This document shows positions 7,309 to 26,364 of a stretch of DNA of 64,000 nt, piece by piece (positions within the stretch are counted from its first letter, which is position 1; the number at the start of each line of letters is the position of its first letter). The position numbers were made by a program, and so were the translations under genes. The DNA lies in NCBI GenBank assembly GCA_038734275.1, contig JAVYOO010000003.1, positions 1-64,000 of the forward strand, written 5' to 3'. Source of the DNA: Archaeoglobaceae archaeon. GTDB taxonomy: Archaea; Halobacteriota; Archaeoglobi; Archaeoglobales; Archaeoglobaceae. The notes beneath the pieces were generated by a model. The model had not been told where the DNA came from. It worked only from the letters and a program-made list of their open reading frames with translations, and made no database searches.

Positions 7309-8448
7309 CTAAAAGTGTTTTATAAAACACTCTTTTCCATCATCAAACCTAATTTCGCCCAGCTCAACAAGATCGAAGTCTGAGAAGGCGGACTCAATGA
7401 GCAGTTTATCGTTTACAGCCTTGAGCAAACCCATTCCAAGGTATTTTTTGCCTTTGTAAAGTCCAACGATTATGTTTTTAAACTCGGCTTCAGAGAAAAT
7501 GAAGACATCATCGACTTCGTAAAGCTCTTTTAGTTCTCTGAGAATTGTGTGATCTGGATAGCAGTTTTCTTTGGTGCAAATCGCAAGAAATTCGTCTCCA
7601 AGCTTTGCAAAAGATAACTTGACACCAAGAACGGTTTCAACAAATTCTGATACGTCTTTACCTCTTAGAATGTCAGGTTTGAGCATAACATTCTCTCTTT
7701 TTACTTCCACTACTATCGCATTCCTCAGGAATTTCTTATAGCTCTCGCATCTTGCCTTTGCTCTTTCAATTTTGTCTCTTTTCATGACAAAGCTGTTCTC
7801 GACTTCGAAAACTTCCCAATCATCGAATATCTTACCTTCAAACGATACAACAAGATCGGGCTCAATGATCTCGAGCTTTGCAAGCTTGTATTCTCTCGCT
7901 CTTCTGCCTTTTACCCAGCCAGTTGTGTCAACGATTTTTCTGCCTTCAAGTTTCTTTAGCTCTTTCCAGAGCCTCGCTACTCCACGCAAACACTTTAACT
8001 CTCTGCCTTGCGGAGTAATGCTACCTACGAAGAACCCGTTAAGCATTTGGACTTGCGAAAGGTTAACCACGTCGCACGCAAATCCATAGCCCATTGCTCC
8101 CGCATGAGCTACGTCTGCCTGCCCGATGTCAAGATCAAGCACGTAAGCTCCGCCAACTTTGTTCGCCAAATAAGTTGCAAGAGTGCTTTTTCCGCTGTCA
8201 ACTCCGCCGTAAAGAAAAACCGTCTCCCAGTCTTTCTTTGCAAGTTTTTCCCAGCTTTCGGGAATTGTGGACTCATTCAAGAGCTTGTAGTCTCCATTCA
8301 ACTCAATTTTGCATTCCTCAAGGCAGTAAATCGGGACAAATTTTTCACTCTCGAAACTCTTTATCTTATTGGACCCAATAACTTCCGCATTGCCTTCTAT
8401 TGCCACTTTTCCCTTTGCGAGAACTGTGCAACCCTTTGGAGCGATCAT
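7309..8448 (-). CDS. Clp1/Grc3-type RNA 5'-hydroxyl kinase
   Basis: This 379-aa protein has an N-terminal beta domain, a P-loop (FLYGGVDSGKSTLATYL, about residues 78-95) and the Clp1-family motif DLDIGQADVAHAGAMGYGF, with a following GSITPQG loop. Archaeal homologues phosphorylate 5'-OH ends of RNA and are candidates for tRNA splicing and RNA repair. The C-terminal 110 residues form a family-specific domain. It ends next to the HD hydrolase on the same strand with a 78-nt gap. Its start faces the defence-island helicase; the intervening 99 nt hold both promoters. Confidence 0.85.
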   Translation of the reverse strand: MIAPKGCTVLAKGKVAIEGNAEVIGSNKIKSFESEKFVPIYCLEECKIELNGDYKLLNESTIPESWEKLAKKDWETVFLYGGVDSGKSTLATYLANKVGGAYVLDLDIGQADVAHAGAMGYGFACDVVNLSQVQMLNGFFVGSITPQGRELKCLRGVARLWKELKKLEGRKIVDTTGWVKGRRAREYKLAKLEIIEPDLVVSFEGKIFDDWEVFEVENSFVMKRDKIERAKARCESYKKFLRNAIVVEVKRENVMLKPDILRGKDVSEFVETVLGVKLSFAKLGDEFLAICTKENCYPDHTILRELKELYEVDDVFIFSEAEFKNIIVGLYKGKKYLGMGLLKAVNDKLLIESAFSDFDLVELGEIRFDDGKECFIKHF

Positions 8449-8547
8449 TTTTCAAAGCTTTTGAGTAGTGTTCAAAAAATTTTCTTCGATCTGTCAAAGT
8501 GAATGGACAAATAGCAAAGTTTTAATTTTATCTGACTTAATAAAAAT

Positions 8548-11500
8548 ATGGAGCTCAGAGAGGGCAGTATAATCAGTGGCCCTTTTTGGGGCGAGGCTGT
8601 GAGGGTTGAGAAGGTTGAGCCAATTGGGGATCGTATTAGGATCGTAGGTTACACGATCAATTCAAAGCAGTTCGTCGATCGTATTCTTAAAAAGGAAGAT
8701 CTGGAAAGGGTTAAGATTCTGAAGCCAGGATTAGATTTTTCTGCAAATTCCGAGAATGCTTTCTATTTCCTCGAGGCGATAAGGTTTAGAAATGCATCGC
8801 TTTTCGATCCACTGCTTGCCGTCAACGTTTCGAAAATAGATCCGCTACCATTTCAAATCGAAGCTGTGTATGGCTACATCTTAAAACAACCAAGAATTAG
8901 ATTTTTGCTCGCTGACGATCCGGGAGCGGGGAAGACGATAATGGCGGGGCTCGTTATAAAGGAAATGAAGTTACGAGGACTTGCGAAAAGAACTTTGATC
9001 GTTGTTCCGGGGCATTTGAAGGATCAGTGGAGAAGGGAGCTGAATGAGAAATTCAAGGAAAGCTTTGTTGTTCTCGACAGAAACACGTTCAACGCTCACT
9101 ATGGCGAGAATCCTTGGGAGAAGAACGATCAAATCATAACTTCGATAGATTTTGCAAAGCAAGACGACATATTAGCCTCGCTTTCATCCGTGCACTGGGA
9201 TCTTGTAATTGTAGACGAGGCACACAAAATGGCTGCTTACAAATATGGCGAAAAAGTTTCAAGGACCCAGCGATACAGGCTTGGAGAAGTTCTTTCGAGG
9301 AATTCCACTCATCTACTATTCCTAACCGCAACCCCGCACAAGGGAGATCCTGAGAACTTCAGATTGTTTTTGGATTTGCTTATTCCTGGCTTCTTTGCAA
9401 CGCAGGAAATGGTTCAGGAATCGCTTGCTAATAAAGACAATCCACTTTTTATAAGAAGGCTGAAGGAAGATCTTAAGGACTTCGAAGGAAAACCAATCTT
9501 TACAAGGAGATTTCCGAAGACGATCAAGTTCTGGTTGTCCGAGGAGGAAAAGGAGCTTTACAACGAAGTCTCAAGATACGTGGTTGAGCAATACAACAAG
9601 GCTTTGCAAAGTGAGAAGAAGAGAAATGTGGCATTTGCTTTGCTGATTTTGCAAAGAAGAATGGCATCAAGCACCTTCGCATTACTCAGATCGCTCGAGA
9701 GAAGAAAGGAAAGACTTGAAAAGATATTAAAGGGAGAGGAGAAAAGAAGAGAGCCCATAGAATTTGAAATTGAAGAAATTGAGGAAGAGGAAGAGAGCGA
9801 GAGGTGGAAAAGAGAAGAAGAATGGGAAGCTATAACTGTTGCGAAGGATTTTGAGGAGCTTAAGCGAGAAATAAGGAGAATTGAGGAACTGATTGAGAAG
9901 GCGAAAAGAATCGTGAATAGCGACGAAGAAGTTAAGCTGAAAGAGCTTAAAAAGGCAATTGAGGAGGGATTTGCGAAGATAAAAGAAATCGAAGGCAATC
10001 CAAAGATTTTGATTTTTACAGAGTCGAGGGATACGCTCGAATACCTTGTAAAGAAGATCAGAAGCTGGGGATACAAGGTTAACTTCATACACGGCGGAAT
10101 GAGCATCGATGAAAGGATTAGGGCTGAGAAGGTTTTTAAGGATGAAACGGAAATAATGGTTGCGACTGAGGCTGCGGGGGAGGGAATAAATCTACAGTTC
10201 TGTCACATAATGATAAACTACGACATCCCATGGAATCCAAACCGTCTCGAGCAGAGAATGGGGAGAATTCACAGATATGGACAGCTAAAGGACGTCTACA
10301 TCTTCAACCTCGTCGCTGTGGATACAAGAGAGGGAAAAGTTTTAGCAAAACTACTTGAAAAACTTGAAGAGATAAGGGAGAAGCTTGGAAGCGATAAAGT
10401 TTTTGACATAATTGGCGAAATCTTTGAAGGCAAGGATTTGTATACGCTGATCGTTGAAGCTGTGACGAATGCTAAAACGCTTGACGAAATTCTGAGTGAA
10501 CTCGATATAAAGCCCGATGAGGAGTATATCTCAAGGATAAAGCAGATCCTCGGCGAGAGTTTGGCAACAAAGTTTATCGACTATACGAGGATAAGGGAAA
10601 TGACTGAAAAAGCAAGGGAATACAGGCTGATCCCTGAATACGTTGAGGAGTTCTTTGTGAGAGCCTTTACGAAGGCTGGTGGAAAAGTGAGGCGAAAAGA
10701 TGGCTTCATTGAAATTGATTCTATTCCTCCAGAGCTCAGGGATATAGCTGAAAGCGTGGAGTTTAAGAACAGGTATGGCATTCTAATGAGGAGGTATCCA
10801 AAGGCTACATTTGACAAGGAAGTTGCTTTTAAGAATCCGGATGCTGAATTCATCTCTTTTGGGCATCCGTTGTTTGAGGCGTTGCTTGAATGGGTGATCA
10901 GAAAGCATGGCGAGGAAGTGAAGAGAGGAGCGGTTTTCAAGGATCCTTCTGGAAGGCTAAATGGCTTCATTCACTTCTACATTGGCGAGGTTCTCGATGG
11001 AAAGGGAGAAATTGCTGGGAGGATGATAATTGCGATCTACGAAGGAGAAAGGATTGAGGAGATAAATCCCGCGATTATCTGGGATTTAAAGCCTGAAAGC
11101 GGAAATTTTGAGGCATTGAAAGATGAAAAGAAGCTATTGCCATATGTTTTGGACGTTCTCGAAAAATACAAGGCAGAGATTTCGATGGAAAGGGAAAGAC
11201 AGGCGGAAGTAAAGAAAAAGTATGGTCTGAAATCACTCGATTATTTGATTGGACAGCTTGACGTTGAGCTTTCTGAGCTATACGAGAGGCAGGCAAGAGG
11301 AGAAAAGGTTGATTTGCCGATAAGGAACAAGGAAGAACAGAAAAGAAGATATGAGGAGGCAATAAAAAAACTTGCTGATGAAATAGAGCTCGAAAGGAAT
11401 TTGTCGATAAGAACTCCTGAACTTCTGACAGTTATAAGGGTTTTGCCAGAGAAAAGTGAAGTTGTTGCGAGTGAAGAGGTTGAGAGAATTGGTATGGAAA

Positions 11501-11853
11501 TTGCGATGGAATTTGAAAGAAGGAGTGGCAGGGAGCCGGAAGATGTCTCAGCTTTGAATCTTGGCTTCGATATAAGGTCTAAGGGAGCGGATGAAATAAG
11601 ATACATTGAAGTCAAGGCAAGGGCTGATGAGGGCGATGTAGCATTGACTCCGAACGAATGGTTCAAGGCTAAGAGGTTTGGCAACGATTACTGGCTCTAC
11701 ATCGTCGCCAACGCATTAACAGCTCCTAAGCTTTACCTGATAAGGAATCCTGCGGAAAACCTGAAAGTTCAGGAAGTCGTGGGCATAGTTAGATTCATAG
11801 TTCCGAAGGAGCAGTGGAAGTCCGCGGGGATGCTTGGATTTTCTGAAAGATGA
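8548..11853 (+). CDS. SNF2-family helicase with C-terminal DUF3883-like domain (defence type)
   Basis: This 1101-aa protein has Walker A DDPGAGKT (residues 123-130), DEAH box VDEAH (about 223), the SNF2 motif LTATPHKG (about 260), a long charged coiled-coil insert (about 385-475), helicase motif V/VI ATEAAGEGINLQ and RLEQRMGRIHRYGQ, and a C-terminal domain with RYIEVKARA and NEWFKAKRFGNDYWLYIV. The last is typical of DUF3883, which has a restriction-endonuclease-like fold. Such helicases translocate on DNA and recur in anti-phage gene clusters (DISARM-like and DUF1156/DUF499 neighbourhoods). It heads the row helicase, DUF1156 methylase, DUF499 ATPase, all on the plus strand. The IEVKAR motif could be a nuclease active site, but this is unproven. 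Confidence 0.85.
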   Translation: MELREGSIISGPFWGEAVRVEKVEPIGDRIRIVGYTINSKQFVDRILKKEDLERVKILKPGLDFSANSENAFYFLEAIRFRNASLFDPLLAVNVSKIDPLPFQIEAVYGYILKQPRIRFLLADDPGAGKTIMAGLVIKEMKLRGLAKRTLIVVPGHLKDQWRRELNEKFKESFVVLDRNTFNAHYGENPWEKNDQIITSIDFAKQDDILASLSSVHWDLVIVDEAHKMAAYKYGEKVSRTQRYRLGEVLSRNSTHLLFLTATPHKGDPENFRLFLDLLIPGFFATQEMVQESLANKDNPLFIRRLKEDLKDFEGKPIFTRRFPKTIKFWLSEEEKELYNEVSRYVVEQYNKALQSEKKRNVAFALLILQRRMASSTFALLRSLERRKERLEKILKGEEKRREPIEFEIEEIEEEEESERWKREEEWEAITVAKDFEELKREIRRIEELIEKAKRIVNSDEEVKLKELKKAIEEGFAKIKEIEGNPKILIFTESRDTLEYLVKKIRSWGYKVNFIHGGMSIDERIRAEKVFKDETEIMVATEAAGEGINLQFCHIMINYDIPWNPNRLEQRMGRIHRYGQLKDVYIFNLVAVDTREGKVLAKLLEKLEEIREKLGSDKVFDIIGEIFEGKDLYTLIVEAVTNAKTLDEILSELDIKPDEEYISRIKQILGESLATKFIDYTRIREMTEKAREYRLIPEYVEEFFVRAFTKAGGKVRRKDGFIEIDSIPPELRDIAESVEFKNRYGILMRRYPKATFDKEVAFKNPDAEFISFGHPLFEALLEWVIRKHGEEVKRGAVFKDPSGRLNGFIHFYIGEVLDGKGEIAGRMIIAIYEGERIEEINPAIIWDLKPESGNFEALKDEKKLLPYVLDVLEKYKAEISMERERQAEVKKKYGLKSLDYLIGQLDVELSELYERQARGEKVDLPIRNKEEQKRRYEEAIKKLADEIELERNLSIRTPELLTVIRVLPEKSEVVASEEVERIGMEIAMEFERRSGREPEDVSALNLGFDIRSKGADEIRYIEVKARADEGDVALTPNEWFKAKRFGNDYWLYIVANALTAPKLYLIRNPAENLKVQEVVGIVRFIVPKEQWKSAGMLGFSER

Positions 11854-11912
11854 AATCTCAAAAAACAGCTTTTCACAGAAAATTTTTTTAAGAATCCAAG
11901 TAAAGATTGGTC

Positions 11913-12089
11913 ATGGCTTTCAGTATGGGGATCAGGGGCAAGGTTTGCAACGTTGGCTATCGCTTGTTTTTACTTAAAGAAGCTGACTCGCTTTTAATTC
12001 CATGCTTTAATGCAAGAAATGAAAAAGAACAGGTTGAGCAATTTCTTGAATTTGTGAAAAGCAAAAAGCCTGAAGAAGGGATTTTATGA
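11913..12089 (+). CDS. Shortened acylphosphatase-like protein (degenerate paralogue)
   Basis: This 58-aa protein starts at ATG 11913 (a TTG lies 6 nt upstream). GIRGKVCNVGYRLFLLKEADSL matches the acylphosphatase signature with its phosphate-binding Arg (VGYR). It is a close paralogue of the 25750 gene but lacks about 15 residues in the middle (the KIDGKEALIVLIDG segment containing two core strands) and the whole coiled-coil C-terminus. It is therefore unlikely to fold as an acylphosphatase. Its stop overlaps the methylase start (ATGA, 12086-12089), so it may serve mainly as a translational lead-in. It could also be a decaying insertion. Confidence 0.6.
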   Translation: MAFSMGIRGKVCNVGYRLFLLKEADSLLIPCFNARNEKEQVEQFLEFVKSKKPEEGIL

Positions 12090-13534
12090 GGGCATTCATT
12101 GAGGAGAGTTTTCCAATAAAAGAAGTGAGCGAGATCTCAAGGAAGGAGAAGAACATTCGCCATGGGCATATCTCGACTTTGCACATCTGGTGGGCAAGGC
12201 GACCTCTGGCAGCTTCAAGGGCGACGAGTTATGCGGCGCTGATTCCTGCGGTTGGAGACGTTGAAGAGTGGGAGAAGAGAAAGCAGTTCATTATAGAGCT
12301 TGCGAAGTGGGAGAACTCTCTGAATAAGCATATAATTGAGAAGGCGAGAAAAGACATAGTTGAGGCAAATGGAAAGGCTCCGAAAGTCTTAGATGCTTTT
12401 GCTGGTGGTGGTTCGATTCCGCTTGAAGCTTTGAGGCTTGGGTGCGAGGTTTTTGCAGTGGAATACAATCCAGTTGCGGTGTTGATTCTTAAGTGCACTC
12501 TTGAGTATCCGCAGAAGTTTGGGAAAAAGCTCGTTGATGAAGTCAAGAAATGGGGAGAATGGGTTCTTGAAGAGGCGAGAAAGGAGCTGAAGGATTTTTA
12601 TCCTGAAGATGAGCTTGAAAGCAACGCTTTGTCGCTTGAAATGGAGAACAAAAAGGAAAAGATGGCTCCAGTTGGCTACATATGGGCGAGAACGATTCCA
12701 TGCCAGAATCCTTCTTGCAACGCGGAGATTCCTTTAATGCGTCAATTCTGGCTTGCAAAGAAGGATAAGAAGAAAATTGCCTTAATGCCCTTCGTTGAAG
12801 GCGGAGAAGTGAAGTTCAAGATCGTTGGCGATGGCTACGAAGAGATGCCTGCAAATTTCAATCCGGAGAAAGGGACTGTTGCGAGAGCGGTTGCGAATTG
12901 CTTGGTTTGCGGTTCAACTGTTGACGACAAAACAGTCAGAAAGCTTTTCCAGCAGGGAAAAAGCGGGCAGAGAATGATAGCGGTTGTGCTTAACAGCAAA
13001 AAAGGAAAAATTTACAGGATTGCAACACAAAAAGACATCGATGCCTACAGAAAAGCGGAAGAATACCTCAAGGAGAAGAGGGCAAAGCTCATGGAGGAAT
13101 GGGGAATAGACCCCGTGCCTGATGAACCTATGCCACCAAAGGAAACCTTGGGTTTTCGCGTTCAAAGATATGGTATTCTAAAATGGGGAGACCTTTTCAA
13201 CTCACGCCAGAAGCTTGCTTTGATAACCTTTGCTGAGAAGGTCAGAAATGCTTACAGCAAAATGATTGCTGAAGGCATGGATGAGGAGTTTGCTAAAGCT
13301 GTCGTGAGTTATTTAGCTCTTGCTGTGGATATGGTTGTAGCTTCCTGTAATACTTTGGGCAGGTGGGAAACTACAAGGGAGTTAATTGCAGATGTTTTCT
13401 CGCGTCAAGCGCTCCCGATGATCTGGGATTTTGTTGAACCCAATCCCTTTAGCGGTGGATCAGGAAGTTTAGAGAGGATACATGATTACTATTACACCAA
13501 AATTCTCGAGCACCTTACAAGCATAAACCCGTAA
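12086..13534 (+). CDS. DUF1156 DNA methylase, N-terminal half (SAM-binding)
   Basis: This 482-aa segment has the DUF1156 N-terminus (FIEESFPIKEVSEIS and the STLHIWWARRPLAASRA stretch, residues 5-47). Methyltransferase motif I follows: VLDAFAGGGSIPLEAL (101-116) with acidic AVEYNP (124-129). Two CxxxxC/CxxC pairs (Cys206/211 and Cys272/275) suggest a zinc ribbon insert. It ends shortly after the conserved NPFSGGSGS region and lacks the catalytic DPPY motif, which is encoded 2.4 kb downstream at 15976. Full-length family members join both parts in one polypeptide; 482 plus 415 residues roughly equals a complete protein. Alone it should bind SAM but not methylate DNA. Confidence 0.85.
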   Translation: MRAFIEESFPIKEVSEISRKEKNIRHGHISTLHIWWARRPLAASRATSYAALIPAVGDVEEWEKRKQFIIELAKWENSLNKHIIEKARKDIVEANGKAPKVLDAFAGGGSIPLEALRLGCEVFAVEYNPVAVLILKCTLEYPQKFGKKLVDEVKKWGEWVLEEARKELKDFYPEDELESNALSLEMENKKEKMAPVGYIWARTIPCQNPSCNAEIPLMRQFWLAKKDKKKIALMPFVEGGEVKFKIVGDGYEEMPANFNPEKGTVARAVANCLVCGSTVDDKTVRKLFQQGKSGQRMIAVVLNSKKGKIYRIATQKDIDAYRKAEEYLKEKRAKLMEEWGIDPVPDEPMPPKETLGFRVQRYGILKWGDLFNSRQKLALITFAEKVRNAYSKMIAEGMDEEFAKAVVSYLALAVDMVVASCNTLGRWETTRELIADVFSRQALPMIWDFVEPNPFSGGSGSLERIHDYYYTKILEHLTSINP

Positions 13535-13622
13535 AGGATTGAAAAATCTCAAAACGATTTTATAAAATTTATTGTTATTTTTAGCAGAGCCAAAGTTCGT
13601 GCAAAAATCTCGATATAAATTT

Positions 13623-13988
13623 TCAGCAAGTATCAATTTCGAGCCTTTTTAGGCAAAAGTCAAAGGTGATGCGGAAGTTTGAAAGGAACTCCAAGCCAAG
13701 AATGACCTCGCCAATTTCGGAAGTTTCAATAAATCCGTCGACTCGATAATCGTTTACAATTACAAAGCCATAAGTGCCTTTCGTCTTTAAAATCCTTCCA
13801 TCGGGCATTAGAAGTGTTCTTTCGCTCATCGAGAGCTTTGAGAACTCGAGTTCGGTGAAGATGTCTTCGGGGAGCATTAAAAAACCCTCATAGCCAGTGT
13901 CAATTATTGCGACCACTTCTCCACTTTCGGGATACCTTTTGCCTGTAAATGCATTCTCGACTTTTATCCCCAAGACAGGGAAACTCAA
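13623..13988 (-). CDS. Clan AA retropepsin-like aspartic protease (AF_0612-type)
   Basis: This 121-aa protein contains VVAIIDTGYEGFLMLPEDIF (residues 26-45). Its Asp-Thr-Gly is the catalytic motif of single-lobe aspartic proteases that act as dimers. VILGLEFLSNFRITFDF near the C-terminus is the conserved LG..FL..F signature of this archaeal/bacterial group. It likely starts at TTG 13988, because the frame is open upstream only to the TGA that ends the ribbon-helix-helix gene, five codons away and in the same frame. The pair sits between the methylase halves on the opposite strand. Proteolysis of a partner or antitoxin is speculative. Confidence 0.75.
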   Translation of the reverse strand: MSFPVLGIKVENAFTGKRYPESGEVVAIIDTGYEGFLMLPEDIFTELEFSKLSMSERTLLMPDGRILKTKGTYGFVIVNDYRVDGFIETSEIGEVILGLEFLSNFRITFDFCLKRLEIDTC

Positions 13989-14003
13989 CGAGTGGAAAGA
14001 ACT

Positions 14004-14321
14004 TCATAGTTTTTTGAGTCTAACTCCAAACCTCGCCTCCTGTTTGAAATCTGAGCGCAAAATTCTAAGACCTCTAAAATCGAGACCCTTCTCTTTCAGC
14101 GTTTTAACGAGCTCCTCAAGACTTTTAGCTTCCGCAACCTTCTCTTCGCCCTTAAAGGCAAAGTATATTTTGTCTTCTCTCTTTAGCTCCTGAATGTAAT
14201 TTTTGACTGCAATTTCGACAAATTTAGAGATTTCTCCTTTCTCCTTTCCAAACTTATCTCTCAAAAGCTTTCTTAGCTCTTTTTCAGTCTCATCGTCAAG
14301 CACTATCGTCAACACGCCCAT
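14004..14321 (-). CDS. Ribbon-helix-helix-type small regulator / antitoxin-like protein
   Basis: In this 105-aa protein the first about 45 residues (LTIVLDDETEKELRKLLRDKFG, then SKFVEIAVKNYI) have the strand-helix-helix pattern of CopG/Arc-type DNA-binding antitoxins. The remaining charged part (VAEAKSLEELVKTLKEKGLDF) may bind a partner. It is the first gene of a two-gene unit with the retropepsin-like protein and is separated from it by one TGA codon in the same reading frame. A regulator or antitoxin role is inferred from fold and size. Confidence 0.65.
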   Translation of the reverse strand: MGVLTIVLDDETEKELRKLLRDKFGKEKGEISKFVEIAVKNYIQELKREDKIYFAFKGEEKVAEAKSLEELVKTLKEKGLDFRGLRILRSDFKQEARFGVRLKKL

Positions 14322-14398
14322 AATTAAAGTTTACTTAAGTATTATTTAAATCTACTGAATCCCAGAAAAATTCTTAAAGATTGAATCTGAGTTAGTTT

Positions 14399-14650
14399 AT
14401 GGAAGCGAGAGTCCGGGTAACAAAGAAAAGGACGATCTATTTGCCAAAAGAGATAACAGAAAAGCTCGGAATAGAGGAGGGGAGCTGGCTAAGGCTGAGG
14501 GTTGAGAAGGGAAAGCTTGTTGCAGAAATTATTGAAAGTCCTTTTGCTCTTGGTTTGAAGGGAAAGAAGTTTGCTGAAACTACATTCGAGGAATTTGAAA
14601 GAGAATCGGAGAAGTTCCAGGAGGAGATCTTTGGTGAAAATTCTTCTTGA
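14399..14650 (+). CDS. AbrB/SpoVT-type antitoxin (VapB-like)
   Basis: This 83-aa protein has an N-terminal swapped-hairpin AbrB domain (RVRVTKKRTIYLPKEITEKLGIEEGSWLRLRVEKGKLV, residues 3-41) and an acidic C-terminal tail (TTFEEFERESEKFQEEIF) suited to cover a toxin. It overlaps the following PIN-domain gene by 17 nt; the toxin ribosome-binding site GGAGGAG is inside its last codons. That is the typical antitoxin-first, toxin-second arrangement. Confidence 0.85.
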   Translation: MEARVRVTKKRTIYLPKEITEKLGIEEGSWLRLRVEKGKLVAEIIESPFALGLKGKKFAETTFEEFERESEKFQEEIFGENSS

Positions 14651-15089
14651 TTCCACTTACCTTCTGCCTGCTGTTGGAGTTTCTGTTAGTAATTCAGAAA
14701 AAATTCTTGAGACCCTTGAATGGCTGAGAAAATCGAAAAAGGCTGAGTTTTACTATTCTGAATTCAGCATCCTCGAAATAATTGCAAAAGTAGCAAAGAT
14801 GAATTACGATGAAGAAGTCGTTGCTCTGGGTTTGCAATCCATTTTTGAAAATCTTAAAGAAGCTAAGGCGGGCATTAAAGCTTATTTAATGGCTTTGAAG
14901 CTAAAAAGTGAGTTCAGAGATTTCATTGACCTGCTTTTGCTTCTCACAGCGGATGAAAACGGAATTAAACTGCTTACAAGAGACAGGGAGCTCAAGGAAT
15001 TTGCCGAAAAACTTGGAAAAGGCAATGTAGTTCTAAGCGAGGAGGAAATTTGCGGAGAGAGCAAAAAAATTCAACCTAACTGGCATTAA
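14634..15089 (+). CDS. PIN-domain toxin (VapC-like ribonuclease)
   Basis: This 151-aa protein starts at GTG 14634 (VKILLDSTYLLPAVGV), preceded by GGAGGAG at about 8-14 nt. PIN-domain acidic residues are visible: Asp in LLDSTYLLP, Glu in EFSILEIIAKVAK, Asp in RDFIDLLLLLTA and Asp in KLLTRDREL. VapC proteins are Mg-dependent endoribonucleases that cut tRNA or rRNA when freed from the antitoxin. It pairs with the AbrB-type protein upstream. All four acidic positions appear intact, so the toxin may be active. Confidence 0.8.
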   Translation: MKILLDSTYLLPAVGVSVSNSEKILETLEWLRKSKKAEFYYSEFSILEIIAKVAKMNYDEEVVALGLQSIFENLKEAKAGIKAYLMALKLKSEFRDFIDLLLLLTADENGIKLLTRDRELKEFAEKLGKGNVVLSEEEICGESKKIQPNWH

Positions 15090-15207
15090 AGCGAAGTTAA
15101 TAAGGAATTTGCGACTTTAGAGCTTTTGAGAAGTAAAAGCCACTATTTTGAGCCTCTGAACAGCTTAATTACAGAAAATTGTCGAACCTATAAGCCCCTA
15201 TGAGTTT

Positions 15208-15540
15208 TCAGCCAATTTCGAGTTTTATCGAAGGATAGCTTTTCTGGACAGCAAGAAAATGCTTATCCCCTGTTTTCAGGGTTAGATTGTTGTTTAGAGC
15301 AACAGCTGCAATGATCAGGTCAGAAGCAGGAATGGGACTACCGTTTTCTACCATCTTTTGCGAGATTTCAAGAGCGAGCGCGTAATCCTTGAGCGAGGGG
15401 ACAATGATGCTCAGATCAAGCATAACCCCCTTTGGAAATTCGATCAGATTGATTATAGTAGTGAAACCTTTTAGTTTTCTACCCTCTTTCATTGCTTTTA
15501 TCATTTCGTTCGTGTCGTAAAGGATCGCATCCTCTCCCAT
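15208..15540 (-). CDS. vapC: PIN-domain toxin VapC
   Basis: This 110-aa short PIN protein begins MGEDAILYDTNEMIKAM, carrying the first acidic residue in YDTN. It continues with TTIINLIEFPKG (Glu) and IPASDLIIAAVALNNNLTLKTGDKHF (two Asp), giving the four-acid ribonuclease site. The N-terminus is compact. The first 40 nt overlap the end of the vapB reading frame, an unusually long overlap that implies coupled translation. VapC would inhibit translation by RNA cleavage if released. Confidence 0.8.
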   Translation of the reverse strand: MGEDAILYDTNEMIKAMKEGRKLKGFTTIINLIEFPKGVMLDLSIIVPSLKDYALALEISQKMVENGSPIPASDLIIAAVALNNNLTLKTGDKHFLAVQKSYPSIKLEIG

Positions 15541-15779
15541 TCTAACACCCTTGACTTCTCATAGTATTCTTCGTATTTCTCAAGCCCCGTTTTTTCAACC
15601 GCATCCCTGAATTCTTTTCCGAGCATTCTCGTTATTTCTTCCCCTGAAATCGTCCCCTTTTCGAGTTTTTCAAGGTATTCGATTATCGCCCTCCTTGCAA
15701 CCTCGCTCCATTTCACTTCTCTGAACTTTTTCATCCTCTCATAAACTTCGGGCGGGATGGACAAAGTGATGTTTGGCAT
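15501..15779 (-). CDS. vapB: VapB-type ribbon-helix-helix antitoxin
   Basis: This 92-aa protein starts at ATG 15779 (MPNITLSIPPEVYERMKKF). The N-terminal strand and SEVARRAIIEYLEKL helix form a CopG-like DNA-binding domain. The C-terminal acidic/aromatic tail (GLEKYEEYYEKSRVLEWERM) resembles antitoxin regions that wrap VapC. Its promoter region (15780-15856) is shared with the divergent transcript for the second methylase half and contains two TGTG/CACA inverted repeats, so it may repress both directions. Confidence 0.8.
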   Translation of the reverse strand: MPNITLSIPPEVYERMKKFREVKWSEVARRAIIEYLEKLEKGTISGEEITRMLGKEFRDAVEKTGLEKYEEYYEKSRVLEWERMRSFTTRTK

Positions 15780-15786
15780 AATATTT

Positions 15787-15824
15787 GTGTGAATCCACAT
15801 ATTTAAGTTTTAACACATCATGTG
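15787..15824. promoter_or_regulatory. Paired TGTG/CACA palindromes in the divergent vapB / methylase-half promoter
   Basis: GTGTGAATCCACAT (15787-15800) has TGTG and CACA half-sites. CACATCATGTG (15814-15824) is a perfect 11-nt palindrome around C. Both lie between vapB and the small ORF leading into the second methylase half. Such repeats are typical operators of ribbon-helix-helix antitoxins. A TATA-like AGTTTAAAAC (about 15831-15840) follows, about 20 nt before the ATG at 15857. Confidence 0.5.
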
Positions 15825-15856
15825 GGAATAAGTTTAAAACGCAAAGCGATATTAAC

Positions 15857-15979
15857 ATGCTAAGCGATTCCAACTTGATGTTAAATCAGGTGGTAATCGT
15901 TGAAAAGATCAGGGCAAATCTTAATGGAGCTTTTCAAGCCGGATTTGTGGAAATAAAACGGGAGGTTGAAAGATCATGA
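15857..15979 (+). CDS. Small 40-aa ORF leading into the second methylase half
   Basis: ATG 15857 lies about 20 nt downstream of a TATA-like element, so the message would be leaderless or nearly so. The product (starting MLSDSNLMLNQVVIV, ending EIKREVERS) matches no family I know. Its stop overlaps the next start as ATGA (15976-15979). It may exist to drive translation of the orphaned methylase half by coupling. A GGGAGG sequence near its end could serve as the ribosome-binding site for 15976. Confidence 0.45.
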   Translation: MLSDSNLMLNQVVIVEKIRANLNGAFQAGFVEIKREVERS

Positions 15980-17223
15980 AGGCGATAAGAATTCCGAGCG
16001 TGCTTCAGGCTTCCGCAACCGAGTTACCTTTTCCTGACGACTACTTTGATGCAGTCTTTACGGATCCGCCATACTACGACAACGTTCCATATTCGTATCT
16101 CTCGGATTTCTTTTACGTTTGGCTAAAAAGAACGATTGGAGACCTTTATCCAGAGCTTTTTGCAACTCCTTTAACTCCGAAGTCGAAAGAAATCGTTGCC
16201 TACTCTCATCAGGGTGGTTACGAAGAGGGAAAGAAGTTCTTTGAAGATATGCTCAAAAAAGCGTTTAAAGAGATTTCAAGGGTTCTAAAACCAAACGGAA
16301 TAGCGGTGATCGTTTACACTCATAAATCCACAGCCGGCTGGGAGACTCTGATAAATTCACTGCTCGATTCAGATCTCGTTCCCACAGCGACTTGGCCAAT
16401 CGATACAGAAATGCAAGCGAGACTTATTGCAAGAGAATCTGCAGCTCTCGCATCTTCTATCTACTTCGTCTGCAGGAAAATGAAAAGGGAAGAAGTTGGA
16501 TGGTTGAGCGAAGTTAAGGAAGAACTGAACAAAAGATTGCCAAAAAAGCTCGAAGAGCTTTGGAAGGAAGGAATAAGCGGATCTGACTTCTTTATTTCTG
16601 CTATTGGCTCATCAATAGAGGTTTTTGGAAAATATCGCAAGATCATGGACTACGAAGGAAATGAAGTCTCAGCGGGGAAGATGATTGAGATCGTGCGGGA
16701 AATCGTTACGGATTATGTGTTTAGACAAATTATACATAATGGAATCGCAGGAGAGCTTTCATCGCTCACGAGGTTCTATCTTCTTTATCGCTGGAGCTTT
16801 GGTGAAGCTAAAATTCACTTTGACGATGCGAGGAAGCTTGCTCAGAGTGTAGGAGTAGATCTTGAAAGGGAATGGAACAGGGGATTTATAAAGAAAGAAA
16901 AGGAATTTATAAGAGTTCTTGGGCCACAGGATAGGAAGATTGACGAAATAAGGAGTAATGAGCTCATAGATGTTCTTCACAAAGTCCTTTTGCTCTGGAA
17001 AACTGGAAGAAAGGATGAGATGAAGGAGGTGCTTAGCGAGAGCGGATATGGGCTAAAGGAAGCTTTTTATCGGGTTGCTCAGGCAATAAGTGAAATTTTG
17101 CCACTGGAAAGTGCAGAGAAAAAGCTTCTCGATGGATTTCTGAGCGGTAAAGAGAGGCTGATAAGTGACATGAAGGAGAAAGCCGGGGATGTGAAAACAA
17201 GGCAGAAGAAGCTATTTGAATGA
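15976..17223 (+). CDS. DUF1156 DNA methylase, C-terminal half (catalytic DPPY)
   Basis: This 415-aa segment opens within the family-conserved stretch ASATELPFPDDYFDAVFTDPPYYDNVPYSYLSDFFYVWLKR. The catalytic motif IV DPPY is at residues 30-33. SHQGGYEEGKKFFEDM and VLKPNGIAVIVYTHKSTAGWETL follow, as in full-length DUF1156 adenine-type methylases. It has no motif I, which is in the 12086-13534 gene. The downstream part (about 180-415) is the helical specificity-type region. It now starts behind its own promoter and a 40-codon leader ORF. The protein could complement the N-half in trans or be a relic; both frames are intact, which favours retained function. Confidence 0.85.
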   Translation: MKAIRIPSVLQASATELPFPDDYFDAVFTDPPYYDNVPYSYLSDFFYVWLKRTIGDLYPELFATPLTPKSKEIVAYSHQGGYEEGKKFFEDMLKKAFKEISRVLKPNGIAVIVYTHKSTAGWETLINSLLDSDLVPTATWPIDTEMQARLIARESAALASSIYFVCRKMKREEVGWLSEVKEELNKRLPKKLEELWKEGISGSDFFISAIGSSIEVFGKYRKIMDYEGNEVSAGKMIEIVREIVTDYVFRQIIHNGIAGELSSLTRFYLLYRWSFGEAKIHFDDARKLAQSVGVDLEREWNRGFIKKEKEFIRVLGPQDRKIDEIRSNELIDVLHKVLLLWKTGRKDEMKEVLSESGYGLKEAFYRVAQAISEILPLESAEKKLLDGFLSGKERLISDMKEKAGDVKTRQKKLFE

Positions 17224-17280
17224 AAACTTTATAAAGTAGGAAATTAAAAATTTTTGATCCAGGGAGGGAAGGTGAAGCTC

Positions 17281-19791
17281 ATGAAACCCTTCACGCAGAT
17301 TGTAAGACCTCATGATGACATTCTTGAAGGAAGGCTTACAATGGATGTTTTTGCAGCAGATCTCTGGCAGGTTGCATTTGGTAACGCTCCGCCAGAGTAT
17401 CGAAATCCTGAACTTTTCTTCAGGAAAACTTATCTAACAAAAGGGCTTAAGAATCTGATAGAAGTTGCTAAAAACAGGCTTCTTGGCAAAACAGGGGATG
17501 CGGTTGTTCAGCTTCAAACTCCTTTTGGCGGAGGAAAAACACATGCTCTTATAGCTTTATATCACAGGGCAAGGGAGTGGAATGCAAAAGTTCTGGTATT
17601 TGATGGAACCGCGCTTAGCGCTGAAGTTAGACTTTGGGAAGAATTTGAAAGGCAGTTAACTGGAAAGATCGATATAGCAAGAGGAGAAGCACCACCGGGC
17701 AAGGAAAAGCTGATAAAACTCATTTCCGAAAACTCACCACTGTTAATCCTTATGGATGAAGTGCTGCAATACATAACAAAAGCATCCGCTATTAAAGTGG
17801 GAGATTCAAATCTTGGAGCTCAAACACTTGCCTTTTTGCAAGAGCTGATGTCTGCAGTTGCAAGCGTAGGTAATGCGATGCTTGTGATAACTTTGCCATC
17901 AAGCGTTCTTGAGCACTACGATGAAAATGCGGAAAGGGCTTTCCAACAGCTACAGAAAATCGCAGGAAGGATGGAAAAGATCTACAATCCGGTTGAAGAC
18001 GACGAAATCGAGCAGGTTGTTAGAGCAAGACTATTCAGCTGGGTTGATGAAAAAGAAGTCGGAATTGCTGTAGAGGAGTTCATAGACTACGCAAAGAGGG
18101 AAAATTTGCTCACAAACGACGAGATTTCAGCTTACAGGGAAAGATTTTTGAAAAGCTTTCCATTCAAACCCGAAGTAATAGACGTTCTTTACAAAAGATG
18201 GGGCTCATTTCCAACCTTTCAGAGGACAAGAGGAGTTTTAAGGCTGTTGTCGCTTGTGATCCATAACCTTGTTGACAAAAATGTTCCCTTCATTCGTCTT
18301 GCGGATTTCGATCTAAACAACAACGAAGTAAGGAGGGAGCTGATCAAGCATATAGGACAAGAGTGGGACAGTGTAGTTGCTCAGGACATAACTTCAAACG
18401 ATTCAGGATCAAAAAAAGTCGATAAGAGCCTTGGAGCTTCTTACTCGGCTTACAGACTTGGAACTGCGGTTGCAACAACGATATTCATGACCTCATTTTC
18501 TGGAAGAGGTGAAAAAGGAGTTAATGTTCGTGAAATAAAGCTGAGTGTCTGCTATCCTGAGTTTCCAAGCAACGTGGTGGACACCGTAATAAATGGTATT
18601 AGAGAAAAGCTGTTCTATTTGTCCGATGAGGGCTTTTACTTCACTAACCAGCCAAACCTGAATCGCATAATCGTAACGAGAGAAGAAAATGTCACTGAAG
18701 AGAAGATCTATGAAGAAGAGCTCAAAATCTTAAAAGATGCTCTAAAAAAGGCAAGCAGGTTCAAAATTATAATCCATCCTAAATCTTCCCGCGATATTCC
18801 CGATACTGAGGATCTCAAGCTTGTAATCCTAAAGGAAGAAAAACCCGAGCAAGAGTTTGTGGAAAGAAATGGTGAGACTCCGAGAGTTTACAGGAACACT
18901 CTTATATTCCTTTGCAGAGATAAAGGCTACGAAGAGCATTTTTCAAGATTTTTGAGGACTTTAATTGCTCTAAGGTCTTTGAAGGATGATAGAATGCTAA
19001 GGCTTACAGATTCGCAGAGAAAAGTTTTACAGGAGAAGCTGAAGGATTTCGAGAACAGAATTTATGAGGAACTAAGGCGGTTGTATAGGCGTTTGTATCT
19101 GCCAAAGAAGGATGGATTCAGGGAGATAGATCTCGGAATACCGTCATACGGCGAGAAGGAACTTGAAAGCGAAATCTTTGAGAGGTTGAAGGGGGAAGGA
19201 GAGATCATCGAGAAAATCTCAGCAAAGCTTTTGAAGGACAGATTTCTTAGGGGAGATTATCTTGAAATTTCAAAGCTTTACAGAGCGTTTCTTACGACAC
19301 CAGGAGAGCTCAGGATTTTAACGAAAGAAGGATTCATCGAAGGTGTCAAAGAGGGCGTTAAAGCGGGGCTTTTTGGCTTTGGCTATCTAACGGGCGAAAA
19401 GCTTGAGTTCGTAGCGATTAAGAAGGAGCCGAAGGTGGAGCTGAGAGAAGAGGAGATTATAATTAAGCCCGAGCTCTTTGTTGAACAAAAGGAACAAAAG
19501 ATAACAGAAAAGCCTAGGGAAGAGAAAGAAAAAGAAGAGAGGGAACCTGTTAAGAAAGAAATCCGTGAAGAAACAATAAAATCCATTGAATACAGATTAA
19601 AAGTCCCTCCAACGAAGATTTCCGATGTGGTAAAGCTCGTATACTTTCTGAAGGGAAAATTCAGTTCTTTTGAGATTGAAGTTTCGCTCAAAGCAAGCGA
19701 TGGCGAGTTGAGCAAATCCGAGCTTGAAGATAAGGTTAAGGAAGCTTTAAGGCAGTCAGGAATAGCAGTAGAGGAGGAAAAGGCTGAATGA
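17281..19791 (+). CDS. DUF499 family ATPase (defence-associated)
   Basis: This 836-aa protein starts at ATG 17281 behind GGGAGGGAAGGTG; an in-frame TTG 27 nt upstream is less likely. Walker A is QTPFGGGKTHAL (GGGKT at 83-87) and Walker B is LLILMDEVLQYI (about 157-168). Then follow a helical AAA+-like lid, RTRGVLRLLSL (sensor/arginine region, about 310) and a highly charged KEEREPVKKE linker before a C-terminal alpha/beta domain. DUF499 proteins repeatedly occur next to DUF1156 methylases and SNF2 helicases in defence islands and are presumed motor or sensor ATPases. It closes the island. Confidence 0.85.
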   Translation: MKPFTQIVRPHDDILEGRLTMDVFAADLWQVAFGNAPPEYRNPELFFRKTYLTKGLKNLIEVAKNRLLGKTGDAVVQLQTPFGGGKTHALIALYHRAREWNAKVLVFDGTALSAEVRLWEEFERQLTGKIDIARGEAPPGKEKLIKLISENSPLLILMDEVLQYITKASAIKVGDSNLGAQTLAFLQELMSAVASVGNAMLVITLPSSVLEHYDENAERAFQQLQKIAGRMEKIYNPVEDDEIEQVVRARLFSWVDEKEVGIAVEEFIDYAKRENLLTNDEISAYRERFLKSFPFKPEVIDVLYKRWGSFPTFQRTRGVLRLLSLVIHNLVDKNVPFIRLADFDLNNNEVRRELIKHIGQEWDSVVAQDITSNDSGSKKVDKSLGASYSAYRLGTAVATTIFMTSFSGRGEKGVNVREIKLSVCYPEFPSNVVDTVINGIREKLFYLSDEGFYFTNQPNLNRIIVTREENVTEEKIYEEELKILKDALKKASRFKIIIHPKSSRDIPDTEDLKLVILKEEKPEQEFVERNGETPRVYRNTLIFLCRDKGYEEHFSRFLRTLIALRSLKDDRMLRLTDSQRKVLQEKLKDFENRIYEELRRLYRRLYLPKKDGFREIDLGIPSYGEKELESEIFERLKGEGEIIEKISAKLLKDRFLRGDYLEISKLYRAFLTTPGELRILTKEGFIEGVKEGVKAGLFGFGYLTGEKLEFVAIKKEPKVELREEEIIIKPELFVEQKEQKITEKPREEKEKEEREPVKKEIREETIKSIEYRLKVPPTKISDVVKLVYFLKGKFSSFEIEVSLKASDGELSKSELEDKVKEALRQSGIAVEEEKAE

Positions 19792-19858
19792 ACTCTATAA
19801 GCTTAAAAGCAGAAATAATTGGCAACTTTTTTAAACAAGGGCTGATGCGATTTCTGGA

Positions 19859-25749: not shown

Positions 25750-26364
25750 ATGGCGATCAGGATCACAATCAGGGGCAGGGTTCACGACGTTGGCTATCGC
25801 CTGTTTCTTCTTGAAGAAGCCGATTCGCTTTTCATCCCATGCTTCGATGTAAGAAATGTTAAAATCGATGGGAAAGAAGCTTTAATCGTTCTCATTGACG
25901 GCGAAAAGGAGCAGCTGGAGCAGTTCGTTGAATTCGTGAAAAGCAATAAACCAGAAATGGCTGTGGTAGAGGAGATAAGCGTTGAGGAGTTCAAAGGCAG
26001 AGTTAGAGACATTGAGAAGTGCAGAGCGAGCTTCAACACTTCGCAGCTTTCGAAGATTGTCCAGGTTGGAGTTAAGATGCTTGAAAGGCAGGATTTGATG
26101 CTGCAAAAACAGGACGAGACGATTAAGAAAATAGAGGAAGTTGGAAAGAAAGTTGATCAGACAAGAGAGGAACTCGGAAGGAAAATAGAGGAAGTGGGAA
26201 GGAAAGTGGATCAGACAAGGGAGGAACTCGGAAAGAAGCTCGATGAGACGAATGAGAAGCTTGAAATACTGAGATCTGATTTCAGGGATTATCTGGAAAC
26301 AAACCTTAAGGAAATAAATTCGAGGATTTCAAGAATTGAGGATGCTTTGAGAAGGCCGGAATAA
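25750..26364 (+). CDS. Acylphosphatase-like domain fused to coiled-coil repeats
   Basis: In this 204-aa protein residues 1-85 resemble acylphosphatase: IRGRVHDVGYRLFLL with the phosphate-binding Arg, and GEKEQLEQFVEFVKSNKPEMAVVEEI corresponding to the second helix and strand. The conserved substrate Asn region is altered, so catalysis is uncertain. The second half is a heptad coiled coil with three near-identical 14-18-residue repeats (IEEVGKKVDQTREELG, IEEVGRKVDQTREELG, LDETNEKLEILRSDF). The shortened copy at 11913 is a paralogue. Function unknown; oligomerisation through the coiled coil is likely. Confidence 0.7.
   Translation: MAIRITIRGRVHDVGYRLFLLEEADSLFIPCFDVRNVKIDGKEALIVLIDGEKEQLEQFVEFVKSNKPEMAVVEEISVEEFKGRVRDIEKCRASFNTSQLSKIVQVGVKMLERQDLMLQKQDETIKKIEEVGKKVDQTREELGRKIEEVGRKVDQTREELGKKLDETNEKLEILRSDFRDYLETNLKEINSRISRIEDALRRPE

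Follow-up and report, generated by a model that had tools for sequence, protein, structure and literature searches.

Hma systems consist of three components, HmaA, HmaB, and HmaC, as defined in PADLOC (PMC8565338), and have since been renamed Type-1 BREX-related (PMC12839542). Accessory defence genes inside Hma operons were reported under the name of "guilt by embedding" by Payne et al. 2024, as cited in PMC12988326 and PMC11411939. Two other precedents matter here. One is that of the DNA methylases M.AquI and M.EcoHK31I, each made of two polypeptides that need each other (PMC3404938). The other is PrrC, lodged in the hsd locus of EcoprrI; it associates physically with the restriction-modification (R-M) enzyme, which keeps it silent (PMC2610378). 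We describe an Hma locus from a heat-loving archaeon of the Archaeoglobaceae (GCA_038734275.1; 1.73 Mb in 12 contigs), in which the methylase gene hmaB is found in two pieces. The window we have analyzed is the stretch of 64,000 nucleotides from positions 1 to 64000 of contig 3 (JAVYOO010000003.1). From sequence comparisons, we find it quite likely that the two pieces make a functional two-chain DNA methylase within a complete Hma island that has moved horizontally, and that the place of the split behaves as one more junction of the operon, where accessory modules can settle.

The genes flanking the two methylase open reading frames (ORFs) match HmaA and HmaC, and it is because of them that the locus can be named. 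Judged by its gene content, it is a complete Hma system with hmaB in two pieces. HmaB is the best PADLOC match of both ORFs (9e-86 and 6e-52), and since the matches fall at successive, complementary positions of the HmaB profile, we take the ORFs to be two halves of one protein. The initial annotation had already read them as one methylase in two pieces that sum to full length, one carrying the S-adenosylmethionine (SAM) binding motif I and the other a DPPY motif, and this reading holds; it overlooked the HmaA and HmaC flanks, and with them the named defence system. The first half (B1) has a Pfam DUF1156 domain (E 2e-22) and motif I as VLDAFAGGGS, and the second half (B2) has motif IV as TDPPYYDN. 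The halves add up to 482 + 415 = 897 amino acids (aa), versus 899 aa in an intact Geoglobus homologue, with no residues missing and the motifs intact. The junction of the intact Geoglobus protein reads ...LFDRMLGVLPNLNPIKTSATVTQASATELPFPDNHFDAVFTDPPY..., while in the window the first half ends as ...ILEHLTSINP(stop) and the second half begins as MKAIRIPSVLQASATELPFPDDYFDAVFTDPPY....

Where is the protein cut? In an AlphaFold2 model of a fused homologue, L088 (mean predicted local distance difference test score, pLDDT, of 85; 77-86 in the block of the break), the break corresponds to residues ~489-495, a coil between a helix (474-488) and a strand (496-499), and the strand of motif IV (512-517) comes shortly after. 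The sequence of this linker is strongly variable among fused HmaB proteins. HmaB is cut in a coil that separates the last helix of its target-recognition part from the strands ahead of motif IV (DPPY), at a variable linker that tolerates interruption. A search of the fused L088 model against PDB structures reports general Rossmann methyltransferases only, none with an E-value below 0.001. We also considered that the linker of fused hmaB genes could be pre-adapted to the split by already including an internal translation start, and rejected it: a Shine-Dalgarno sequence with an in-frame start occurs in 2 of 59 linkers, compared with 125 of 1415 background windows.

Information on function comes from a second copy. 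A genome from another species of the same genus (G009, locus L018) has this split island too, cargo included, at 98.3% identity over 11,250 bp (8560 to 19794 in the window). The similarity ends at the HmaA and HmaC edges, and the flanks of the island do not match between the two genomes. The topoisomerase VI B genes of the same two genomes are only 69% identical, and given this disparity between island and core gene, the split island has moved horizontally as a unit, directly or via a common source. Both copies then descend from a split ancestor, so that the differences between them, barring conversion from other copies, arose after the split. Those differences are mostly synonymous. Leaving aside codons 345-372, B1 has 10 synonymous and 1 nonsynonymous differences (omega 0.027, p 2e-6), B2 has 19.5 and 9.5 (omega 0.134, p 7.5e-7), and HmaA and HmaC have an omega of about 0.10. 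Taken one at a time, the cargo genes have too few differences for a firm test (VapC p 0.0095, the others above 0.05). A second pair of split loci, Aquificaceae L084 and L087, in which B2 is a gene of its own preceded by related cargo, has a B2 omega of 0.08. In the window and G009, both halves of HmaB have been under purifying selection since the split.

The codons set aside above behave differently. At B1 codons about 345-372 (window 13120-13200) the sequence has been replaced wholesale, PPKETLGFRVQRYGILK in the window versus VRVPVSFGVINVWVYGMNK in G009, while one single residue differs elsewhere in B1. The exchanged block has ~20 residues and sits between DPVPDE and WGDLFNSRQ. The same few alleles recur in distant lineages, even across phyla, and the block is probably a module determining the specificity of recognition. 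Such an exchange between alleles suggests that the methylase was in use.

Our set of 80 related loci was drawn from 85,000 species, each represented by one genome, and we extended the comparison with searches over 40 and 394 relatives, 55 family members, and 136 genomes from the phylum of the Aquificaceae locus L087. As to whether an unsplit gene exists in related genomes, a check proposed with the initial annotation, hmaB is a single frame in most relatives, rather than two genes everywhere, and comparison with those relatives reveals no disrupted motif residues in either half. The same linker is split in 12 loci besides the window, in archaea, Aquificota, and other bacterial metagenome-assembled genomes (MAGs). 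The archaeal ones are L018, L064, L065, and a decayed L021 (these last three from the same family), and L074 from another archaeal family. Five more are in MAGs named as Aerophobetes, Deltaproteobacteria, Campylobacteraceae, Aquificaceae, and uncultured bacterium (L081, L082, L086, L087, L090), names that may be wrong for the short contigs, and two, L210 and L211, belong to the same phylum as L087. In addition, L066, L067, L071, L084, and L208 show one hmaB half next to foreign sequence before the contig ends. Three loci first called split (L069, L135, L142) were recoded, as hmaB is broken at other places in them. We also observe an Hma relic in the phylum of L087 (L209, ~10821-12733), which has lost the N-terminal half of HmaB and in which a truncated HmaA continues into the C-terminal half.

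The cargo is different at almost every locus. The most common consists of MntA/HepT-type nucleotidyltransferase and HEPN genes (L064, L065, L071, L074, L081, L086, L090, and a relic in L082). The L087 insert has a DarT-DarG fusion, an HEC-02-like ATPase pair, and a MazE-type gene; that of L065 adds a large ATPase together with a partner gene, as well as an M48 peptidase and an IS110-like transposase; L067 has HicA/HicB, and L210 tandem coiled-coil genes. Three stretches related to one another, around CTGTGGAGGT, lie ahead of consecutive cargo starts in L074 (790-1640, minus strand), as though a repeated sequence had received unit after unit in tandem. We looked for target-site duplications as a mark of insertion. 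Only L090 has one, of 28 nt (chance maximum 12), and neither the window nor the other loci do. The L090 repeat, at ~8360-9050, is an exact direct repeat that encodes PTITQSSAT and flanks the MntA/HepT insert, and L090 is the sole locus to hint at a mode of insertion.

Counting interruptions along the whole operon puts the linker in context. Using a threshold of >250 bp for an interrupting insert, the linker has them in 12 other non-redundant loci, and we find no frame-interrupting insert of that size inside HmaA (73 loci), HmaC (65), B2 (113), or B1 (119). B1 does have a gap at residues 173-193 in two loci (495 and 570 bp); the one in L154 is an in-frame enlargement within an open frame, and that in L156 is similar. 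Apparent inserts in loci on viral contigs (L189, L193, L194) are alignment effects of distant homologues, and were left out of the count. Gaps >400 bp appear in 24 of 60 loci between HmaA and HmaB, in 19 of 59 between HmaB and HmaC, and in the linker in 11 of 86. With such gaps there as at the ordinary junctions, the linker behaves as a third, less used junction of the Hma operon.

How many times has this happened? A single ancestral split inherited by all can be discarded, as one split clade is rejected with p-AU 6e-86. On a B2 tree the split state requires 9 changes, at least 4 of them forced by well-supported branches, and on a B1 tree it requires 6, again at least 4 forced. There have been several independent changes of state. 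Each of them may be a split or a fusion of the halves back into one gene, and a split could also be carried between lineages by recombination.

Our proposal for the window can then be put together as follows. The first chain would supply the helical DUF1156 part, motif I for SAM binding, and the region of target recognition. The second chain would contribute the DPPY strand and complete the Rossmann fold, and would add the C-terminal domains. No covalent link would be needed for the two to reassemble. In different lineages the hmaB linker has repeatedly taken up accessory modules, most of which are toxin-antitoxin pairs, and three toxin-antitoxin-like pairs occupy it here (Table 1); any benefit from this cargo is something we infer.

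Table 1. Features of the split Hma locus in the window, with the evidence used to name each of them.
Feature	Position	Strand	Evidence
HmaA, SNF2/RapA-like helicase with C-terminal NOV_C	8548..11853	+	PADLOC HmaA E 3.6e-206, top match; Pfam Helicase_C, SNF2, NOV_C
HmaB N-terminal half (B1), 482 aa: DUF1156, SAM motif I, target-recognition region	12086..13534	+	PADLOC HmaB, profile match ending at 546-551 of 973
Retropepsin-like aspartic protease with a DTG motif, pair 1; start codon uncertain	13623..13988	-	sequence motif, no Pfam match; weak PADLOC "protease" E 3e-4
RHH_6 ribbon-helix-helix protein, pair 1	14004..14321	-	Pfam RHH_6 E 2e-7
AbrB/MazE-type antitoxin, pair 2	14399..14650	+	Pfam MazE_antitoxin E 2e-6
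PIN-domain toxin, GTG start, pair 2	14634..15089	+	Pfam PIN E 8e-9; four acidic residues by inspection; weak PDC-M11A
Short PIN-domain VapC-like toxin, pair 3	15208..15540	-	Pfam PIN E 0.002, under cut-off; acidic residues by inspection
VapB-like RHH antitoxin, pair 3	15501..15800	-	resemblance and gene pairing only; no Pfam match
TATA-like box TTTAAAA, putative promoter of leader and B2	15833..15839	+	sequence
40-codon ORF, putative leader; stop overlaps B2 start as ATGA at 15976	15857..15979	+	sequence
HmaB C-terminal half (B2), 415 aa: DPPY motif IV, remaining methyltransferase fold, C-terminal part	15976..17223	+	PADLOC HmaB from profile position 571-572 of 973
HmaC, DUF499 AAA+ ATPase	17254..19791	+	PADLOC HmaC E 3.7e-124

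The three pairs in the 2.4-kb insert that separates the halves are those the initial annotation had listed. As type II toxin-antitoxin systems, the AbrB/PIN pair is above the Pfam cut-offs, the VapB/VapC pair is named by resemblance, and the retropepsin owes its name to a motif. The pairing at 13623-14321 of a ribbon-helix-helix protein with a DTG protease may be toxin-antitoxin-like, the protease being an unusual partner. Two other sequences are worth recording. The short ORF at 11907-12089, directly before hmaB, resembles the acylphosphatase-like N-terminus encoded by a 204-aa gene at 25750-26364 and looks truncated relative to it, with about 80% DNA identity across 109 bp, a likely copy that we noticed via L018. 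And the genome has a second HmaB-like methylase (L025, contig 2, ~101100-103800), fused, with 878 aa and DUF499 and helicase neighbours, which is only 31-36% identical to the halves in the window.

The second half also has its own start region. The box, the 40-codon ORF, and the ATGA overlap are present as first described, and B2 probably has a promoter of its own, followed by a leader to which its translation is coupled. The leader has 0 differences in 123 nucleotides between the window and G009, too few sites for strong evidence. An ATGA overlap with the B2 start is also seen for the HEPN stop of several MntA/HepT loci, in the same way as for the leader ORF here. This arrangement, together with the divergent starts of B2 and the VapB-like gene, just 175 bp apart, would fit a split that couples the methylase to its cargo, either because the pairs guard HmaB, in the manner of PrrC and EcoprrI, or because B2 responds to VapB through the shared promoter region. 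That an R-M enzyme can silence a linked PrrC (PMC2610378), and that genes embedded in Hma clusters are reported as defences, in the accounts given by the two citing papers above, speak for such coupling. But the cargo varies at almost every locus, with some of it of a coiled-coil family or including the IS110-like transposase, cargo-holding gaps occur more often at the two ordinary junctions, HmaA-HmaB and HmaB-HmaC, and no operator has been identified. We regard coupling as possible and rather unlikely. Control by VapB in particular is a hypothesis not supported so far; other split loci carry different cargo and no vapB, so sharing its promoter is not a general reason for the splits. A stronger proposal, in which the linker is a dedicated docking site where selection keeps cargo inside the methylase because the expression or toxicity of that cargo depends on methylase assembly, with the loss or inhibition of either chain releasing the toxin, we consider doubtful.

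Equally doubtful is that the cassettes disabled the methylase, leaving two remnants in an island kept for HmaA, for the toxin-antitoxin pairs, or by addiction. The initial annotation left the choice between a two-chain and a disabled enzyme undecided. For the window, the purifying selection acting on halves that are intact in two genomes, the intact motifs, and the exchange of the B1 recognition block all disfavor disablement, and B2 is complete as well in L081, L082, L086, L087, L090, and L210. Several considerations weigh on the other side, against a working two-chain enzyme. The toxin-antitoxin pairs could indeed retain the island through addiction. In L064, L065, L071, and L211, B2 carries a truncation or a frameshift, and the L021 locus has decayed; with several split loci damaged, splitting may often precede loss. 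Purifying selection is compatible with the halves keeping a role other than that of a two-chain methylase. Many of the related loci are on MAG contigs, some of them short. And the natural two-chain precedents considered here, M.AquI and M.EcoHK31I, are C5-cytosine enzymes broken elsewhere, whereas HmaB is a DPPY amino-methylase with cargo between its halves. Finally, an assembly or binning artefact is very improbable: the window and most relatives are draft assemblies, but the identical arrangement occurs in a second genome with other flanks, and a dozen other loci share the break point with different inserts.

These loci show a multi-domain defence methylase that has been opened repeatedly at one linker, apparently without being destroyed, and they provide a set of naturally split amino-methylases for biochemistry. 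Annotation pipelines will read a split hmaB as two broken genes. Are the embedded toxin-antitoxin pairs just passengers of a tolerant site, or are they guards of the methylase?

Compared with the described Hma systems, the window shares all three components, in the order helicase, methylase, ATPase, and on one strand. It differs in having HmaB as two genes with cargo between them; the parts of PMC8565338 and PMC12839542 that we searched do not mention a split HmaB. With M.AquI and M.EcoHK31I, it has in common one methylase encoded as two genes, with no residues lost in the HmaB of the window. With PrrC and EcoprrI, it has in common a toxin within a restriction-modification locus; that report, as read here, describes no split methylase gene, and a physical or silencing link between cargo and methylase in the window would be hypothetical. 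In the literature searched we found no description of cargo inside hmaB, and as the embedding preprint itself was outside that search, priority is unsure. Embedding between Hma genes is known, and embedding inside hmaB appears to be undescribed. Also close to our observation, to judge from what the citing papers relate, are those Hma-embedded candidates, which likewise are accessory genes within Hma operons, to the point that HEC-02-like proteins are present in the L087 insert. Here the cargo lies within the coding region of hmaB itself, and the embedding of accessory defence genes is thereby extended from between the Hma genes to the inside of one of them.

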